Positions 55,102 to 64,000 of a DNA stretch of 64,000 nucleotides are shown here, piece after piece. Under the pieces are notes generated by a model that was not told the origin of the DNA, made no database searches, and was given only the letters and a program-made list of their open reading frames with translations. A program made the position numbers and the translations under genes. Location: positions 430,254-494,253 of the forward strand of contig JAUSBK010000001.1 of assembly GCA_030652115.1 (NCBI GenBank), read 5' to 3'. This stretch comes from Coriobacteriia bacterium (GTDB taxonomy: Bacteria; Actinomycetota; Coriobacteriia; Anaerosomatales; Anaerosomataceae). How positions within the stretch are numbered: position 1 is the first letter of the stretch; the number at the start of each line of letters is the position of its first letter.

Positions 55102-55656
55102 ATGGCGGGATGTCCGAGCAGCGCGTACTGCGTGTTCTACAAGACGATCGAGCCGAGCATCGTTAAGCGCGTCCGGTACGCGTCGATCTACTCGTACTGC
55201 AGAGGCGGCGAGCACGCCGTCTGCGCGCTCTACGACAAGGTCGCGACCGGTCTGCCCGTCATGCACAATCTCATGCCCGACGGGTCGATCGGCGAGTATC
55301 TCGATGAGGACCGTGCGGTGGTGCACCGCTTCCTGGTGATCGAAGACTCGCCTGTCTTCGCCGCATTGGCCGCGAGCGTGATCTCCTCGCACTTCACCGG
55401 CGCCCAGATAGTCCGCAAGTCAACATACGACGATGCCGCCGAGGAACTCGCTGATGGTATGTTCTCAGCGGTGGTCTGCGGGTTCGGCCTTGGCGGGGAG
55501 CGCACTGCGCACGACGTACGACGGATCACGACGGCTCCGCTGGTGGTCCTCACCGGGCGGCCCGGCAAGATCGATCCCCCGTCGGGATCCCGCGTGGTAC
55601 ACAAGGGCGCCGGCCCCGAGGCGCTGGCCTCCGCGCTCCGGGCGTGTCTGGCCTAG
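55102..55656 (+). CDS. Cys-rich N-terminus fused to a pseudo-receiver domain
   Basis: 184 residues from the ATG at 55102 (GAGGAGG upstream). The first 75 residues contain four cysteines (C4, C10, C33, C41) that could bind a metal or iron-sulfur cluster. Residues about 78-184 have a receiver-like fold: FLVIEDSP retains an acidic pair and VVHKGA the lysine, but the phospho-acceptor position reads AVVCGFGLGG with no aspartate. I infer a non-phosphorylated regulator, perhaps redox or metal responsive. No output domain is present. Confidence 0.68.
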   Translation: MAGCPSSAYCVFYKTIEPSIVKRVRYASIYSYCRGGEHAVCALYDKVATGLPVMHNLMPDGSIGEYLDEDRAVVHRFLVIEDSPVFAALAASVISSHFTGAQIVRKSTYDDAAEELADGMFSAVVCGFGLGGERTAHDVRRITTAPLVVLTGRPGKIDPPSGSRVVHKGAGPEALASALRACLA

Positions 55657-57210: not shown

Positions 57211-57540
57211 GTGCCCGACAACACCGTGAGCGTTCGCATGTTCGGCTGTCTTCACACGCTGCGCAAAGAGCGCGGCCTTCCTACCACCGCCGATGTCCCG
57301 ATCGCCGAGGCGGGTGTCACCGCCGCTGGCCTCGCCGAGCAGCTGGATCTCCCGCTCGACATGATCGAGGGCGTCTTCTGCAACCGGACCGTGTACCCGA
57401 TGAGCTACCCGATCCGGCCCGGCGACCGCGTTGCATTCGTGCCCAAGGGCACGCCCGGTCCGCATCGGTTCTACCTCGGCCTGTACGCGGCGGGCCAGGA
57501 AGAGGGCGCATCCGACGCGCCGCCTACCGATGGGGACTGA
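57211..57540 (+). CDS. MoaD/ThiS-like ubiquitin-fold protein with C-terminal extension
   Basis: 109 residues from a GTG preceded by GAGGAGG. The beta-grasp pattern (VSVRMFGCLHTLRKERG; LPLDMIEGVFCNRTVYPM; IRPGDRVAFVPKGTPG) resembles MoaD/ThiS proteins. However, the usual terminal Gly-Gly is not at the end; KGTPG is followed by about 25 extra residues. It lies 119 nt before the aldehyde oxidoreductase gene. It may be a scaffold or insertion factor rather than a sulfur carrier, or may require trimming. Confidence 0.7.
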   Translation: MPDNTVSVRMFGCLHTLRKERGLPTTADVPIAEAGVTAAGLAEQLDLPLDMIEGVFCNRTVYPMSYPIRPGDRVAFVPKGTPGPHRFYLGLYAAGQEEGASDAPPTDGD

Positions 57541-57659
57541 CTCGGCCGCTGCGCACCGAGGCAAAGGCACTGAATAGGGGGATTAACTGGGAGGTGGACC
57601 ACCACGGCGCATGCTCTCCGGCCAGTGAGCAGCGCCGTGAACAACGAAGGGAGCGGCAT

Positions 57660-59435
57660 ATGCGGGACATCGTGCGTGTCAACATGGCTACCGGCGCCAT
57701 CACTCGGGAACCACTTCCCGATGGATGGGCGCGCTACGGTGGCCGGGCGCTGACCTCCGCGCTCGTGTTCAAGGAGGTACCGGCCGACTCGGATCCTCTG
57801 GGCCCAGACAACAAGCTCGTCTTTGCGCCCGGCCTCCTCGGTGGCACGTCCGCTCCGAACGGCGGGCGGTTGTCCGTGGGTGCGAAGAGCCCGCTGACCG
57901 GCGGTCTGAAAGAGGCGAACGTCGGTGGTCAGGCGGCGCACGCCCTCGCTAAGCAGGGCATCGCCGCTCTGGTCATCGAGGGTAAGCCTGCTGACGCTGC
58001 GGCTCGCTACCTGCTCGTGCTCGAGGCCGATGGAGCGATGAAGCTCGAGCGTATGGACGCATGGGCGGGTCTCGGCAACTACGCTACCGCCGATGCGATC
58101 AAGGAAACCCGTCCGGCCGATGACCGGTATGCGACCATCACCAACGGGCCGGCCGGTGAGATGCTTCTCAAGGCGGCCGCGATCGCCGTGTCAGATCCGA
58201 AGATGTACCCGAACCGCTTCGCCGGTCGCGGTGGCCTCGGCGCCGTCATGGGCAGCAAAGGCCTCAAGGCGATCGTCGTGTCGGACAAGGGTCTCCCGTA
58301 CGTTGAGCATGCGGACAAGGATGCCTTCAACGCCGCGGTGAAGAAGTTCGCGAACGCGCTGACCACGCACGCCGTGTCGGGTCAGGCGCTGCCGACGTAT
58401 GGCACGAATGTCCTTGCCAACATCATCAACGAGGCTGGCGGCTATCCCACGCGCAACTTCTCGGCCGGTCAGTTCGAGGGCGTTGAGAACATCTCCGGAG
58501 AGACGATGCGGGAGATGACCCTGGAGCGCGGCGGCAACGTCAAGCACGGGTGCCACACCGGTTGTGTGATCCAGTGCTCGCGCTACTGGTACGACAAGGA
58601 TGGCCACTACAAGACCAAGGGTATGGAGTACGAGAACGTCTGGTCACTCGGCGCCGACTGCGGTATCGATGACCTTGACGCCATCGGCGACCTCGACCGC
58701 GAGGTCAGCGACCTGGGACTCGACGCCATCGAGATGGGCGCAACGCTCGCCGTCTACATGGACTCCGGCAAGATCGCATTCGGGGACGGCGCTGCCGCTC
58801 TCGCCGCGATCAAAGAGATCTGGACCGGCACCGAGTTGGGCAAGACCCTCGGCCAGGGTGCCGAAGTGACCGGCAAGGCGTTCGGCGTGAAGAACATCCC
58901 GGTCGTGAAGCACCAGGCGCTGCCGGCGTACGACCCGCGCCCGATCCAGGGCATCGGCGTCACGTACGCCACGTCTACGCAGGGCGCCGATCACACCGCC
59001 GGCTACTCGATCACCGCAAACGTGCTCGCTGTCGGCGGCAGCGTCGATCCGCTGAAGCCGGAGGGACAGGCGGCGCTTTCGCAGGGCTTGCAGATCGCGA
59101 CCGGAATGCTCGACGCATTCGGTCTGTGCATCTTCGTCGCGTTCCCGGTCCTCGACATGCCCGAGGCCTTCGAGGCAATCTTCGAATTGGCCGAGGCGCA
59201 CACGGGACTCAAGTGGGATGCGGATGCGCTCATGCAGGTCGGCAAGGAGACGCTGACCTACGAGCGGCTCTTCAACGAGCATGCGGGCTTCACGAACGCC
59301 GACGACCGCCTGCCGAAGTACTTCTACGAAGAGAAGCTCCCGCCGCACAACGTGGTCTTCACGGTCACGGACGAGGAACTCGACAGCGTGCACGACTTCG
59401 TGCCGGCTGTTGCTGCTTCACTCGGCATCAAGTAG
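57660..59435 (+). CDS. Aldehyde:ferredoxin oxidoreductase family tungsten/molybdenum enzyme
   Basis: 591 residues from the ATG at 57660 (GGGAG upstream). N-terminal AOR domain: the pterin-binding GGRLSVGAKSPLTGG and NRFAGRGGLGAVMGSKGLKA segments are conserved. The [4Fe-4S] site uses C298, C302 and C306 (CHTGCVIQC, spacing CX3CX3C) and C490 (DAFGLC). The CX3CX3C spacing occurs in a distinct AOR subgroup rather than in the archetypal CX2CX3C enzymes. Expected reaction: oxidation of aldehydes or other low-potential substrates, coupled to ferredoxin. Flanked by MoaD-like genes and a ThiF-like E1, which probably supply its cofactor. No ferredoxin gene is adjacent. Confidence 0.95.
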   Translation: MRDIVRVNMATGAITREPLPDGWARYGGRALTSALVFKEVPADSDPLGPDNKLVFAPGLLGGTSAPNGGRLSVGAKSPLTGGLKEANVGGQAAHALAKQGIAALVIEGKPADAAARYLLVLEADGAMKLERMDAWAGLGNYATADAIKETRPADDRYATITNGPAGEMLLKAAAIAVSDPKMYPNRFAGRGGLGAVMGSKGLKAIVVSDKGLPYVEHADKDAFNAAVKKFANALTTHAVSGQALPTYGTNVLANIINEAGGYPTRNFSAGQFEGVENISGETMREMTLERGGNVKHGCHTGCVIQCSRYWYDKDGHYKTKGMEYENVWSLGADCGIDDLDAIGDLDREVSDLGLDAIEMGATLAVYMDSGKIAFGDGAAALAAIKEIWTGTELGKTLGQGAEVTGKAFGVKNIPVVKHQALPAYDPRPIQGIGVTYATSTQGADHTAGYSITANVLAVGGSVDPLKPEGQAALSQGLQIATGMLDAFGLCIFVAFPVLDMPEAFEAIFELAEAHTGLKWDADALMQVGKETLTYERLFNEHAGFTNADDRLPKYFYEEKLPPHNVVFTVTDEELDSVHDFVPAVAASLGIK

Positions 59436-59445
59436 GCAAGTGGCA

Positions 59446-59500
59446 CAAGTACGCGCCCCGTGGCATCGTGAGTCCAGCGGTGTCACGGGGCGCGTACGCG
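59446..59500 (+). promoter_or_regulatory. Strong intercistronic hairpin after the oxidoreductase gene
   Basis: GTACGCGCCCCGTG (59449-59462) pairs perfectly with CACGGGGCGCGTAC (59484-59497); three further pairs narrow the loop to 15 nt. It ends 17 nt before the GTG of the next gene and lacks a T-tract. It is probably a processing or stability element that sets expression of the downstream genes relative to the enzyme. Confidence 0.65.
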
Positions 59501-59514
59501 CCGGGGAGGTTCAC

Positions 59515-59754
59515 GTGAAGGTCGACGTGGTGCTCTTCGCCCATCTGGCCACCTTCCAGCCCGACGGCAAAGGGGGCAGGCATTCGCGTGCTTTCGACCT
59601 CGCGGAAGGCACCATCATCGCCGAGGTCGTGGAGATGATAGGCTTGCCTGACGAGCCCCGCGTGGTCTTCGTGAACAGCCGCCATGCGCCGGAAGACCAG
59701 GAACTCTTCGAGGGAGACCGGCTTGCGATCTTCCCGCCTGTAGCCGGAGGTTAG
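59515..59754 (+). CDS. MoaD/ThiS-like sulfur-carrier protein
   Basis: 79 residues from the GTG at 59515 (GGGGAGG upstream). The beta-grasp fold ends in PPVAGG, with the terminal Gly-Gly needed for adenylation and thiocarboxylation. The E1-like gene follows 1 nt after its stop. Established knowledge: MoaD/ThiS proteins donate sulfur for the molybdopterin dithiolene or thiamine. Here the neighbouring tungsten/molybdenum enzyme points to pyranopterin cofactor assembly. Confidence 0.85.
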   Translation: MKVDVVLFAHLATFQPDGKGGRHSRAFDLAEGTIIAEVVEMIGLPDEPRVVFVNSRHAPEDQELFEGDRLAIFPPVAGG

Positions 59755-59755
59755 T

Positions 59756-60352
59756 GTGATGCCCGAGTGGGACACCGACCCACGTCTTGCGGACAAGCGT
59801 GTGGCGATCATCGGCTGTGGGGGGCTCGGCAGCAATGTGGCCGGGATGCTCGTGCGTGCCGGGGTGGGCCACCTCCTGCTCATCGACTTCGACACTGTTA
59901 CTCAGTCGAACCTCAACCGCCAGTTCTTCTTCGCCGACCAGGTGGGCATGCTCAAGACGGACGCGCTTGCACTCAACCTCCGCCGGATCCGTCCGGACGT
60001 CGAGCTCGTGCTCCATCCCGAGCGGCTGACGACTGCAACACTCGTGTCAGCCATCCGCGATACCGATGTGGCGATCGAGGCGGTCGATGCCGCCGACACC
60101 AAGGCGACGATAACCGCGGCATTCATGGACCACCTTCCGCTCATGCCGCTGGTGACCGCATCGGGGATCGCGGGGTGCGGCTCGGCGAACACGATCGTCA
60201 CCGAGCGTCTCGCCGAAAGGCTCTACCTCGTCGGCGATCTCACAAGCGATGTGAGCGTCGGCCTGCCGCTGTACGCCACGCGTGTGATGGTGGCTGCGGC
60301 TGCGCAGGCGCACATGGCGCTCAGACTGCTTCTCGGCGAGAGCGAACCGTAG
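59756..60352 (+). CDS. ThiF/MoeB/HesA-family E1-like adenylyltransferase
   Basis: 198 residues (GTG at 59756 or ATG at 59759; GGAGG precedes both). The ATP-binding core is complete: VAIIGCGGLGSNVAGMLVRA, then DFDTVTQSNLNRQFFF with the R-finger arginine, and the catalytic aspartate in EAVDAADTK. It is short for the family and lacks the CXXC zinc pairs and rhodanese tail of MoeB. It should adenylate the Gly-Gly tail of the MoaD-like protein encoded directly upstream. Last gene of the oxidoreductase operon. Confidence 0.9.
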   Translation: MMPEWDTDPRLADKRVAIIGCGGLGSNVAGMLVRAGVGHLLLIDFDTVTQSNLNRQFFFADQVGMLKTDALALNLRRIRPDVELVLHPERLTTATLVSAIRDTDVAIEAVDAADTKATITAAFMDHLPLMPLVTASGIAGCGSANTIVTERLAERLYLVGDLTSDVSVGLPLYATRVMVAAAAQAHMALRLLLGESEP

Positions 60353-60441: not shown

Positions 60442-61461
60442 CTACTGGACGGTGGGATAACCGGGGACCGTGGCCGGATCGAAGCCGGTGAGGCCTCCCA
60501 TGCCGGCGTCGTTGGTCCAGCCGCTCATGCCGAACTTCATGTTGGAGGCGTCGTAGCCCATGAGGATCAGGAACATAGTGGCTTCTCCACCGGTGTGGCC
60601 GGTGTAGCAGTAGATGATGATCTTCTTGCTGGGATCGACCTTGTCGAGGTTGTCGGCGATGTCGGTCCACAGGATGTTGATGGCTCCATCGATGTGGCCC
60701 TTGGCGTAGTCCTCGGGCTTGCGCACCGAGATGATCTGATAGTCCGAGTCCTTGGCCTGCACGATGCTGTAAACGTCCTCGGGGGCGATCGTGGGGGCGG
60801 CGTCGCTGGCGAAGTACGCCTTGGCCTGTCCCTTGATGGCCTCGGCCACGTCGGCGTACTCGTCGTCGAGCTCCGGTGCCTCGAACGGGCCAGCAGCCTC
60901 GGTGGGCGTGCTGACGGTGGGATAGCCCGCGCCGGCCTTACCGGGGATGTCCACGCCAACGATAGCCTTGTCGGCTATCCAGCCGGCCATGCCGAACTTC
61001 AGAGTGTATGCATCGTAGCCGAGCATGTTCCAAACCATGTTCGTCATCGAGGCGGTGTGACCCGTGTAGCACACGACGACGATCTTCTTGGTGTCGTCGA
61101 GCTTCGCGAGGCTCTCGTCATCCGCGGTCGTCTTGAACGGTATGTTGATCGAGCCTTCGATGTGACCGAGGGCGTAGTGCTCGGCCGAACGGATGTCGAC
61201 GATCTGATAATCCGGATCCTTGTCGGTCACGATCTTCAGCAGGTCAGCTCCCGCGATGGTGGGAACCGGCTCGTTCTTGAAGTACTCGTTCGCCGCCTCG
61301 ATCATGGCGGCTCTCATGTCGGCGGACGGCTCGCTCGCTGTGGTCTCCTCGGCGACCTCTTCCTCGACCGCCGGCTCTTCAGTGGCGCACCCCGGCACGG
61401 CCACCAGGCCGAGCACGAGGACTGCGGCCAGAAGGGCGGTCATCCAGCGCTTGTAACTCAT
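60442..61461 (-). CDS. Lipoprotein with two rhodanese domains
   Basis: 339 residues. The signal peptide ends in a lipobox (VAVPGC), then an acidic linker (EEPAVEEEVAEE). Two rhodanese domains (about 70-175 and 225-335) each contain the active-site loop CYTGHT with its catalytic cysteine. CYTGHT loops are typical of extracytoplasmic rhodaneses in sulfur-metabolising bacteria. AGGAGG lies before the ATG. The sensor gene lies 58 nt upstream on the same strand. It probably handles sulfane sulfur outside the cell membrane. Confidence 0.92.
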   Translation of the reverse strand: MSYKRWMTALLAAVLVLGLVAVPGCATEEPAVEEEVAEETTASEPSADMRAAMIEAANEYFKNEPVPTIAGADLLKIVTDKDPDYQIVDIRSAEHYALGHIEGSINIPFKTTADDESLAKLDDTKKIVVVCYTGHTASMTNMVWNMLGYDAYTLKFGMAGWIADKAIVGVDIPGKAGAGYPTVSTPTEAAGPFEAPELDDEYADVAEAIKGQAKAYFASDAAPTIAPEDVYSIVQAKDSDYQIISVRKPEDYAKGHIDGAINILWTDIADNLDKVDPSKKIIIYCYTGHTGGEATMFLILMGYDASNMKFGMSGWTNDAGMGGLTGFDPATVPGYPTVQ

Positions 61462-61519
61462 GGTGGATCCTCCTGTTCGTGCAGTCTGCGGCGAGATGGT
61501 CGCCGCGGCCCCTGTGCGG

Positions 61520-62428
61520 TCAGTCCCTGTTGGAGAGTTGCTTGAGTGTTACCGACACGAGCGAGATGAAGTTCGCGAAGAACGTCTCGAACGATCCGAT
61601 CTCATCGGTCGTCCCATCTGGCTGGAAGACGGCTTCGAAGTCGCCGCCGGCCAGGCGCACCGAGATGTCCTGCATGTGCTCGGTCATGCGCGCCAGGCGC
61701 TTCAGCACAAGGGTGTCGATGAGTGCGCCGATGGTCAGCGCAGCGGCGACGAGCGTCAGGGCGACGGCCAGGAGCGTCCGCGCGAGCGCGGTTGCCGACT
61801 GATCGGCCTGAACAGAGAGGTCCTTGACCGCGTAGACGATGCCGATCGGCTCGGTACCGCCGGCATAGACCGGAAACGCTGCGTGTGCCGAGCTCCAGCC
61901 ACTGTCGTCCGAGCGGATTCCCCAGTAGGCGCTGTCTTCCGGTGTGCTGTGGCACGCGTTCCAGCAGGCGCCGTTCGTCATCCCGATGAGCGCGCCTTCG
62001 TCGGTGAGATCGGACGGGGTGGCCTCGAACTGCATGTCGCCAATCACTGCGGAATCGGTGTTCGCCAGTAGCGCATAGGCGCTGTCTTCGTCCCACAGCG
62101 AAGGCTGGTCGATCGACTCCCGCGCATGGATGTACGCGCCTTCGTCAACGGCGTCCTCGTACACGAACAGTGCGTACTCGACGCCCGTGACCGACTTCAT
62201 CTCCTTGAGCACCTGTTGCGCGCGCGAGGGCTCCGCGATGGGGTGGAATCCGTCCGGTGGTGAGAACTGCTCCCAGGCGACGAGCCCCTGGGCGGCAGTC
62301 CCGCTGGCCGACTCCGTGAGACTGTCGGCGTAGGACTGGTGCAGGAACATCATCAGCACCACAGCGCCGAGCAGGTTGACGATGACCACACTCGCAAGTA
62401 TGCGGGTACGGATTGAGAGATTCTTCAT
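61520..62428 (-). CDS. HAMP-domain membrane sensor with CX3CH haem-type motif and no output domain
   Basis: 302 residues from the ATG at 62428 (GGGGG upstream). Membrane helices at about 9-30 and 214-238 bracket an extracytoplasmic domain of about 180 residues that contains C155-W-N-A-C159-H160, a CX3CH version of the covalent haem motif. A HAMP linker follows (LKRLARMTEHMQDISVRLAG) and the protein ends at 302, without a kinase, methyl-accepting or cyclase domain. Periplasmic c-type haem sensors of this layout are known in Geobacter chemoreceptors. It sits between a small-protein gene and the rhodanese lipoprotein on one strand. Confidence 0.82.
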   Translation of the reverse strand: MKNLSIRTRILASVVIVNLLGAVVLMMFLHQSYADSLTESASGTAAQGLVAWEQFSPPDGFHPIAEPSRAQQVLKEMKSVTGVEYALFVYEDAVDEGAYIHARESIDQPSLWDEDSAYALLANTDSAVIGDMQFEATPSDLTDEGALIGMTNGACWNACHSTPEDSAYWGIRSDDSGWSSAHAAFPVYAGGTEPIGIVYAVKDLSVQADQSATALARTLLAVALTLVAAALTIGALIDTLVLKRLARMTEHMQDISVRLAGGDFEAVFQPDGTTDEIGSFETFFANFISLVSVTLKQLSNRD

Positions 62429-62521
62429 GCGGTGCTGCCCCCTTGCCGGTCGTCTTGATCTGCACTCCATGGCCAGCGCGCCTGCGCGGAGCATCTCCTG
62501 CTCGCCGGGGCGCACCGCGCG

Positions 62522-62722
62522 CTACAGTCTGATGCCGAGGACCTCCTCGGCGGCCTTGCGCAGCAACTCGATCTTCGTAGAGTCGTCGGGGTCGTCGGGC
62601 TTGATGAGTGAGATGATGAATCCTGATCTCATGGCGATCGCACCCCGGGTCTTGAAGACATCGAGGTGGTTGCTCCGTATGTGCTGCTCGATCTTCTCTG
62701 CGTAGTCGTACAGAATGCCCAT
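62522..62722 (-). CDS. Small conserved-looking protein of unknown function
   Basis: 66 residues from the ATG at 62722 (GGGGGTG upstream; an earlier in-frame ATG at 62746 is possible). MGILYDYAEKIEQHIRSNHL, then KTRGAIAMRSGFIISLI and KIELLRKAAEEVLGI suggest helix-strand-helix. No membrane segment or family recognised. It precedes the HAMP sensor by 93 nt on the same strand, possibly as a signalling partner replacing the absent output domain. Confidence 0.6.
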   Translation of the reverse strand: MGILYDYAEKIEQHIRSNHLDVFKTRGAIAMRSGFIISLIKPDDPDDSTKIELLRKAAEEVLGIRL

Positions 62723-62870
62723 GTTGCTCACACCCCCTTGCGACATTATCTTCATGTTCGGCAAGTTTTGCACTCCTCATGAGAGCGAAGAGAGATTTGG
62801 CCGGGCCAGATGCGTGTCTGCGGGTTCCGTCTGTCTGTGTTCGAGACGCCGCTCGTGCTACGGTGCCCGC

Positions 62871-64000
62871 ATGATCACCACGTTCCGATACGCGGCTACC
62901 TGCCCCAAGGGCGTCGAGCCGCTTCTTGCGGCCGAGCTGCGCGCACTCGGTGTCGCCGAGGTGCGCGAGACGCGTGCGGCGGTGACCTTTACGGGTCCTG
63001 TTGAGGCCGGGTACCGGGCGTGCCTCTGGTCGAGGCTCGCCGCCCGGGTGCTCATCAACCTCGCCGAGTTCCCCGCGGCTACCGCAGACGAGCTGTACGC
63101 GGGAGTTGCGGCCCTTCCGTGGGAGGAGCACCTCGCTGCTGACGGGACGCTCGCGATCGACGTCGTCGGCGCGACCTCCGGGCTCACGCACACACGCTTC
63201 ACGGCGCAGAAGGCGAAGGATGCGATCGTCGACCGGCTGCGCGAACGGACCGGGAACCGGCCCTCCGTGGAGTTCGAGCGACCGGACCTGCGCGTGAATC
63301 TGCGTCTGGCGCGTGAGCGAGCGATTCTCTCGATCGACCTCTCGGGCGAACCGCTCCACGAACGCGGCTATCGCACGCCGGGCGAGCAGGCCGAGGCGCC
63401 ACTCAAGGAGAACCTGGCGGCGGCGGTGCTCGTGCGCGCCGGGTGGCCTGAAGTCGCCGCGGCCGGCGGCGCGCTCGTAGACCCGATGTGCGGCTCGGGC
63501 ACGCTTCTGGTGGAAGGCGCGCTCATGGCCGCCGACCAGGCTCCGGGGCTCCTGCGCGAGTACTGGGGATTCACGGGCTGGCTCGGCCATGACGCCGACG
63601 CGTGGCACGGGCTGCTCGACGAGGCCGACGACCGTGCCGAGGCCGGCCGCGACCGGTTGCCGGTGATCGCCGGCTTCGACGAGGACGCGAGCGCCATTGC
63701 GCTTGCGCTCGCATGCGCGAAGCGCGCGGGCTTCGGCGCCGCCATCACCGTGGAGCAGCGTGAACTCAGGTCGCTCAGGGCGCCCGCCGGCGCACGGCCG
63801 GGGCTCCTCGTGACCAACCCGCCGTACGGCGTTCGCCTCGGCGAGAGCGAGGCGCTGGTGCCCCTCTACGCCACGCTCGGCGAGCGGCTGCTCGCGGAGT
63901 TCGACGGGTGGCAGGCTGCGATCCTCACGAGTGACGAGTCGCTTGCGCGCGCGACCGGCTTGCGGAGCTCGGTGGCGCACACCCTCTACAACGGCACGAT
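62871..64000 (+). CDS. RlmL-like THUMP-domain RNA methyltransferase (C-terminus cut off by window edge)
   Basis: The frame is open from the ATG at 62871 to the edge (376 codons visible). An N-terminal ferredoxin-like/THUMP region (about 1-160, FRYAATCPKGVEPLLAAELR, with the late RPDLRVNLRLAR) leads to a Rossmann methyltransferase: VDPMCGSGTLLVEGAL for SAM binding and TNPPYGVRLGE as the NPPY catalytic motif. This is the RlmL/Trm14 layout, methylating guanine N2 in 23S rRNA or tRNA; the exact target cannot be fixed from the fragment. Confidence 0.92.
   Translation, partial: MITTFRYAATCPKGVEPLLAAELRALGVAEVRETRAAVTFTGPVEAGYRACLWSRLAARVLINLAEFPAATADELYAGVAALPWEEHLAADGTLAIDVVGATSGLTHTRFTAQKAKDAIVDRLRERTGNRPSVEFERPDLRVNLRLARERAILSIDLSGEPLHERGYRTPGEQAEAPLKENLAAAVLVRAGWPEVAAAGGALVDPMCGSGTLLVEGALMAADQAPGLLREYWGFTGWLGHDADAWHGLLDEADDRAEAGRDRLPVIAGFDEDASAIALALACAKRAGFGAAITVEQRELRSLRAPAGARPGLLVTNPPYGVRLGESEALVPLYATLGERLLAEFDGWQAAILTSDESLARATGLRSSVAHTLYNGT

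Follow-up and report, generated by a model that had tools for sequence, protein, structure and literature searches.

A HAMP-ended receptor with a CX3CH Cache domain and a conserved 66-residue partner candidate in Anaerosomatales

The receptor gene and its ending

In the window (the whole stretch of 64,000 nucleotides analyzed here), a receptor gene lies between the genes for a tandem rhodanese and for a 66-residue protein, with the following features:

60442–61461, minus strand: tandem rhodanese P0002 (PF00581, two stretches); a neighbor only, outside the conserved operon
61520–62428, minus strand: CX3CH-Cache-HAMP receptor P0001 (302 amino acids, exact open reading frame coordinates); the chain stops just past HAMP
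61595–61708, minus strand: HAMP of P0001, residues 241–278, a sub-threshold Pfam match; 24 residues follow DEIG
61892–61975, minus strand: insert, residues 152–179 as delimited by the model strands 146–151 and 180–188; absent from the Cache relatives without the motif, where the alignment shows a gap of 23 columns
61949–61966, minus strand: CX3CH motif C155-W-N-A-C159-H160, in 18/18 family members; W169 and H182 invariant in 17/17
62429–62521, minus strand: gap of 93 nt where most sister loci have a giant multihaem cytochrome gene; no significant trace of it
62522–62722, minus strand: P0003, the 66-residue three-helix partner candidate; start set by the family alignment, the gene caller's start being 11 codons upstream

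P0001 begins with a basic N-terminus and a first transmembrane segment (TM1), continues through an extracytoplasmic domain of ∼170 residues into a second one (TM2), and stops after HAMP. Because the Pfam HAMP match (PF00672) to residues 241–278 scored 17 bits (E 0.0076), below the 25-bit cut-off, this domain was assigned via the family alignment and the fold match to WalK. The AF2 model of P0001 (mean pLDDT 79; residues 164–169 below 50) showed five strands together with a long first helix and a short helical stretch at the motif; over residues 1–302 it matched the integrative model of WalK (Z 9.6, rmsd 5.0, 240 aligned). The second PDB row was 3cwf, a crystal structure (Z 9.1); 12 chains in all scored Z 8 or above, the nearest entries being WalK, CitA, and other extracytoplasmic Cache/PAS sensors. 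NCBIfam yielded weak matches to sensor proteins, chiefly across TM2–HAMP, the Pfam search of P0001 gave no Cache match, and the search of PDB sequences with the receptor family gave none at E ≤ 1.

No output domain was found in P0001 by Pfam and NCBIfam searches. A fused histidine kinase, MCP, or GGDEF domain is absent throughout the family, 22–27 residues following DEIG in all 17 complete receptors. The initial annotation had described a HAMP sensor without an output domain, which agrees with the open reading frame, with the order TM1, extracytoplasmic domain, TM2, and HAMP, and with the lack of any domain thereafter. It had also considered that a frameshift near 61520 might hide a downstream domain. 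This is ruled out, because 58 nt separate the P0001 stop from the rhodanese start and because the chain stops at an equivalent position in each of the 17 complete receptors.

The CX3CH site and its Cache domain

When 69 genomes of the order and 30 of other orders of the class were compared, 24 of the 99 (the window's own and those of relatives) contained a match to P0001 at E ≤ 1e-5. The CX3CH form was present in 18 of these 24, own genome included, all of them from one bacterial order; 17 of the proteins are complete, and the remaining one (L045), which is cut by a contig end, is left out of alignment A1. Identity of the other complete CX3CH receptors to P0001 was 35–52%. The remaining matches include HAMP-ended double-Cache proteins of ∼400 residues without the motif, and a 931-residue protein (L024) in which a Cache relative is combined with what looks, by its sequence, like PAS-GGDEF-EAL. 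The receptor was not found in any of the 30 genomes from other orders, and a search across 396 genomes of the phylum returned one match, the window's own. Two scans of genome contigs, in which records near the window's genome were possibly left out, returned no relative.

The C-WNA-C-H site that had been noticed at the outset in the extracytoplasmic domain is located at residues 155–160 and was recovered in 18 of 18 family members. C155, C159, H160, W169, and H182 are invariant in the 17 complete receptors, each of which contains exactly two cysteines, both within CX3CH. As the motif occurs in 18/18 and no other cysteine in 17/17 complete proteins, it is not due to chance. CX3CH has been classed among the atypical c-haem motifs for ImcH homologues (PMC6295460), and one genome survey scored it as a haem motif (PMC10734462). 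As judged from sequence, it is probable that P0001 carries a covalent c-type haem. A site without haem, acting as thiol/disulfide switch or metal site, would accord with the two sole cysteines residing in an inserted loop and with a spacing that departs from CXXCH. This reading is improbable, considering the invariant histidine right after the second cysteine, the invariant W169 and H182, the steady linkage to multihaem genes (see below), and the precedent in the ImcH homologues.

In the P0001 model, the strands span residues 84–90, 118–123, 146–151, 180–188, and 194–203, and the insert of ∼25 residues, modeled as a low-confidence loop, lies between the third and the fourth; it carries CX3CH, W169, and the W173 position. 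A Cache fold whose strands 3 and 4 are separated by an insert with the haem motif also characterizes sCache_heme (DUF3365/Tll0287, PF11845), the one family of covalent-haem Cache domains described in a February 2026 preprint, where CXXCH is nearly strict (99%) and a HAMP-ended member, from Pseudomonas azotoformans, is known (PMC12889525). The present receptors differ from this family in their spacing, which is CX3CH in 18 of 18. P0001 did not match the PF11845 profile at E ≤ 5, and none of the 39 listed PF11845 matches in the order overlaps a CX3CH receptor gene. When the Cache core of the CX3CH receptors was compared with DUF3365 by hhalign, probabilities were within 0.29–0.7 (0.65, 0.29, 0.3, and 0.7 in four comparisons), versus 96.5 for two DUF3365 groups compared with each other as positive control. 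Membership of P0001 in DUF3365 was thus rejected on motif spacing, profile, and core similarity. The negative hhalign result speaks to close kinship only; a distant common Cache ancestry is possible, because DUF3365 versus the double-Cache group also gave 0.7.

In contrast, the CX3CH Cache core matched the membrane-proximal Cache of the double-Cache receptors with an hhalign probability of 99.6 (E 7.9e-25), and with 99.7 when the insert columns were removed. Two of the latter (L046 and L048) match PF14827 (dCache_3). The HAMP-ended dCache_3 receptors of the order (L046, L048, and L051) share with P0001 the homologous membrane-proximal Cache, TM2, and HAMP, and differ in having two Cache modules and no CX3CH; in L046 and L048, the small partner is present too, and 22–23 residues follow DEIG. 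Because the tests for the known haem-Cache (motif, profile, and core similarity) failed, the P0001 family looks like an independent one, and the simplest reading is that a loop was inserted independently at the same place, between strands 3 and 4, as in sCache_heme. Alternatively, the loop may have been borrowed from DUF3365 or from the neighboring cytochrome; it is too short to tell by comparison.

Canonical DUF3365 haem-Cache proteins (e.g., L188, L197, and L200) occur in 31 of the 69 genomes of the order, and all 15 inspected have CXXCH; the window's own genome has no PF11845 match. The 2026 preprint gives DUF3365 haem-Cache as rare or absent in Actinomycetota (PMC12889525).

The small protein and the cytochrome operon

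The neighborhoods of the receptor genes, called with our own codon-usage script rather than a standard gene finder, have a recurring order. In the sister loci, the gene for the 66-residue protein is transcribed first, followed by that for a giant cytochrome (joined in four loci by that for another one, with 9 CXXCH) and finally by that for the CX3CH receptor; only in L042 and L043 is the small gene located between cytochrome and receptor. The giant cytochromes not cut by a contig end comprise 736–1146 residues and contain 9–19 CXXCH, most having CX4CH sites also. Such a gene was present within the fetched neighborhood of 16 of the 18 receptors (cut by a contig end in 4). In one of the other two genomes (G033) the receptor contig begins ∼460 bases before the gene, and cytochrome and small protein are encoded on another contig. 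This leaves the window as the sole intact receptor neighborhood without a giant cytochrome.

The operon with a giant cytochrome would also suit an electron-transfer membrane cytochrome that has merely retained a HAMP-like stalk, and stand-alone haem-Cache proteins appear redox-like (PMC12889525). This is nonetheless quite unlikely: 17 of the 35 invariant columns of the receptor family alignment fall in residues 241–302, that is, in HAMP and tail, and a Cache relative forms part of the above-mentioned 931-residue PAS-GGDEF-EAL-like protein L024.

With regard to the window itself, the cytochrome gene is lost from this genome, and receptor and partner are kept. No remnant of a multihaem gene was found in the whole window at E ≤ 0.01 (the best, with 0.078, in 61462–62900), and the N-terminal 320 residues of one giant cytochrome had no match in the own genome at E ≤ 1e-10. 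Cytochrome c maturation genes, which the initial annotation had proposed to look for, are represented in the own genome by 6 PF01578 and 4 ResB matches (one of them weak). CXXCH-coding patterns, not checked for frame, numbered 395 + 108 = 503 versus 92 + 64 = 156 for the reversed pattern. The genome thus probably encodes c-type cytochromes. For two cultured Anaerosomatales strains, 18 and 17 multihaem cytochromes are reported, one of the strains depending on Fe(III) (PMC9686372).

A profile of the small family identified 38 sites in 26 of the 69 genomes of the order; the 30 genomes from elsewhere in the class had none, and the single match in 296 genomes of the phylum was the window's own. All 18 genomes with the haem receptor possess the small family versus 8 of the 51 others (Fisher p 9e-11, uncorrected for shared ancestry). 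Small gene and receptor were in one fetched operon in 14 of these 18. In G029 and G033, the small gene is next to the cytochrome, on a contig other than that of the receptor; in G047 and G053, whose receptor contigs end early, the small gene is solo at another place.

A HAMP receptor follows the small gene at 27 of the 38 sites; at 3 others the contig ends after the cytochrome, and the remaining 8 are solo. Haem-Cache receptors account for 14 of the 27, double-Cache receptors for 3, helical-looking receptors of ∼345 residues for 9, and a minimal one of 146 residues for 1. Thirteen of the 14 haem-Cache sites have the giant cytochrome, either between the two genes (11) or upstream of both (2); the exception is the window. 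Two receptors of the 27 are cut by contig ends: the assignment at L137 to the helical type is by resemblance only, and that at L143 is accompanied by a match to the A3 profile (E 1e-27). For L127 and L133, the small gene was positioned from profile-search coordinates. The helical receptors continue for 60-odd residues after HAMP without a recognized domain; when P0001 and 10 further receptors were searched with Pfam HAMP, 5 scored above the cut-off, all helical, and 6 below. As the receptor types differ, the association of the small protein is with HAMP receptors generally.

A tree of the small proteins (31 of the 38 sites) separated the partners of the helical receptors as one clade (100/100). 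The haem partners, among which L141 and L146 were counted although their contigs stop at the cytochrome, required 4 changes versus 10.5 in shuffles, and all types together 8 versus 15.3. Partners of double-Cache receptors (3 changes) and solo proteins (6) were scattered as in the shuffles. The small protein is likely to be a direct partner of the receptor, as far as gene neighborhoods and co-occurrence can tell. Signaling through a separate partner, as proposed in the initial annotation, gains support from this context, with the 66-residue protein, next to a HAMP receptor at 27 of 38 sites, as the conserved candidate.

The double-Cache receptors L047, L049, L051, and L052 have tails of 25–44 residues and no small gene. 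All four adjoin a gene of the response-regulator cluster, and three also one of the kinase cluster (Pfam-confirmed for L051 only). This suggests that double-Cache receptors ending at HAMP work with one of two alternatives, the small protein or a kinase pair. L047, L051, and L052 are in apparent operons with the kinase- and regulator-cluster genes (Pfam for L051) and are candidates for a system of three parts in which the receptor is separate.

P0003 was modeled, at high confidence, as three helices (pLDDT 96.4). No recognized domain was found by Pfam among 15 members of the family, the two matches (best E 0.052) being to one member each. A search of PDB sequences with the family returned two designed TIM barrels (E 0.0003–0.0004; each repeat alone 15) and weaker matches. 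The best structural rows were N-terminal subdomains of H-NOX proteins (Z 6.5, rmsd 2.5, 61 aligned; best Foldseek E 0.23), which resemble the small protein in the three-helix arrangement across the whole 66-residue chain, at a Z below 8 that may reflect a common arrangement of helices; the haem-binding C-terminal half of H-NOX is missing from it. In sequence, the small protein showed no homology to H-NOX (hhalign probability 1.1 against an alignment of 10 H-NOX sequences), and the modeled likeness in fold is kept as a lead without weight for function. A DNA-binding protein is unlikely as well: a designed DNA-binding protein reached Z 5.0, natural helix-turn-helix proteins at most 4.4, and the mean net charge of 31 members is −2.1.

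Two further sites of the small family deserve mention. A second copy in the own genome (L125:5846–6130; G000, contig 11) has no HAMP receptor beside it; its neighbors encode an NYN-domain protein and a protein that matches DUF2680 weakly, at a score below the cut-off. At L126:5960–6400, the small partner gene precedes that of the 146-residue protein, which is arranged as TM-loop-TM-HAMP and has almost no sensor domain.

Proposed signaling, divergence of the window copy, and neighboring genes

These data are compatible with a c-haem receptor for redox state or NO that signals through a separate three-helix protein, a reading, covering haem and direct partner with either cue, to which we assign a probability of roughly 0.5 from the sequence comparisons. 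The receptor would be membrane-bound and probably dimeric, with one covalent c-type haem on the inserted CX3CH loop of its extracytoplasmic Cache, H160 serving as the proximal ligand and H182 as candidate distal ligand. A change in the redox or ligand state of the haem would shift the Cache, move TM2, and re-pack HAMP, and thereby alter the contact with the separate, soluble 66-residue protein, which would take the place of a fused output domain and act further in its turn. In the relatives, the pair may report on, or control, the large multihaem cytochrome encoded with it; in the lineage of the window, the cytochrome gene would have been lost, and receptor and partner retained.

An extracytoplasmic c-haem sensor on a membrane signaling protein is known from the Geobacter chemoreceptors GSU0582 and GSU0935 and from Desulfovibrio DcrA (PMC8396549). 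These have an output part of their own, for chemotaxis, whereas P0001 stops at HAMP, its small partner candidate being encoded separately; moreover, GSU0582 and GSU0935 are assigned to the CXXCH family in PMC12889525. For the Geobacter sensors, a redox-linked change in haem ligation was proposed to drive signaling (PMC8396549 and PMC3460858).

Redox state as the specific cue of the proposed receptor is a tentative choice. The same receptor may instead respond to a diatomic gas, NO, binding to the haem, a proposal that we hold to be similarly doubtful. The HAMP-ended haem-Cache protein of P. azotoformans, the one such protein tested in print, releases NO slowly, like known NO sensors, and behaves as an NO rather than a redox sensor (PMC12889525); binding of NO and CO is also known for the haem sensors of Geobacter (PMC8396549). 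On the other hand, the usual operon partner of the CX3CH receptors is a multihaem cytochrome, and the invariant H182 could occupy the sixth haem site.

Whether the findings combine into a new two-gene module, that is, receptors without a recognized output domain after HAMP, equipped with interchangeable sensors and served by one dedicated cytoplasmic three-helix partner that replaces a kinase or MCP domain, plus a second, independent covalent-haem Cache with a CX3CH loop at the strand 3–strand 4 site of sCache_heme, appears to us evenly balanced. A literature search, limited in coverage, returned no description of the receptor–small protein module. If true, an independent haem-Cache in another lineage, with another spacing at the same site, would mark the loop between strands 3 and 4 as a place where a cofactor can be installed repeatedly; the small partner would answer how HAMP-ended receptors pass on their signal; and the link to giant multihaem cytochromes would provide a handle on how bacteria of this order may sense their own electron transfer.

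The window copy has diverged markedly, and mostly at the input end. Identity of its Cache to those of three sisters from the same family (L029, L031, and L035) was 35–41%, versus 56–63% among the three; for TM2–HAMP the values were 58–67% versus 64–71%, and for the small protein 65–70% versus 75–79%. The end branch of the window receptor measured 0.95 versus a median of 0.35, and it lacks K91, E151, W173, and A211, which are otherwise invariant (leave-one-out count without the near-copies L030 and L043); three of the four are in the Cache, E151 and W173 near the motif. These same figures would fit a pair that, in the window genome only, has been decaying as a relic since the cytochrome was lost. 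We regard this as rather unlikely, because the reading frame is intact, because CX3CH, W169, and H182 are kept, and because TM2–HAMP and the partner are near the sister values. Furthermore, L041 (branch 1.0, 5 departures) and L044 (0.73, 4 departures), both from other families, have diverged as much and retain the cytochrome; fast change is therefore not peculiar to its loss. That the input domain was released or retuned after cytochrome loss, with the signaling end kept, is suggestive only.

The tandem rhodanese and the 66-residue protein are both encoded on the strand of the sensor, as initially stated (the designation of the former as lipoprotein being from sequence alone), and a redox or sulfur sensor had been considered on this basis. 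The redox part is favored by the 9–19-CXXCH cytochrome beside the relatives and by the own cytochrome c assembly matches; the sulfur part is not supported, the rhodanese being an incidental neighbor. Of the 69 order genomes, 12 have a rhodanese match (the window's own genome is among them, and one match is a fragment containing a stop); no homologue was among the genes called in the other 26 fetched loci around the receptor and its relatives, which led to its rejection as a functional partner for the family, and in G010 the rhodanese is ∼30 kb from the sensor. Given the gap of 58 nt, co-transcription with the receptor in the window genome is possible. In four sister loci of the same family, a helicase-like gene adjoins the sensor; the window has a block of genes in between that is absent there, comprising what we take, by their sequences, to be MoaD-like, aldehyde:ferredoxin-oxidoreductase (AOR)-like, ThiS/MoaD-like, and MoeB/ThiF-like genes (57211–60352, plus strand) and the rhodanese gene itself. 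A 184-residue protein (55102–55656, plus strand; cluster c8) has kept its place beside the helicase-like gene in five neighborhoods.
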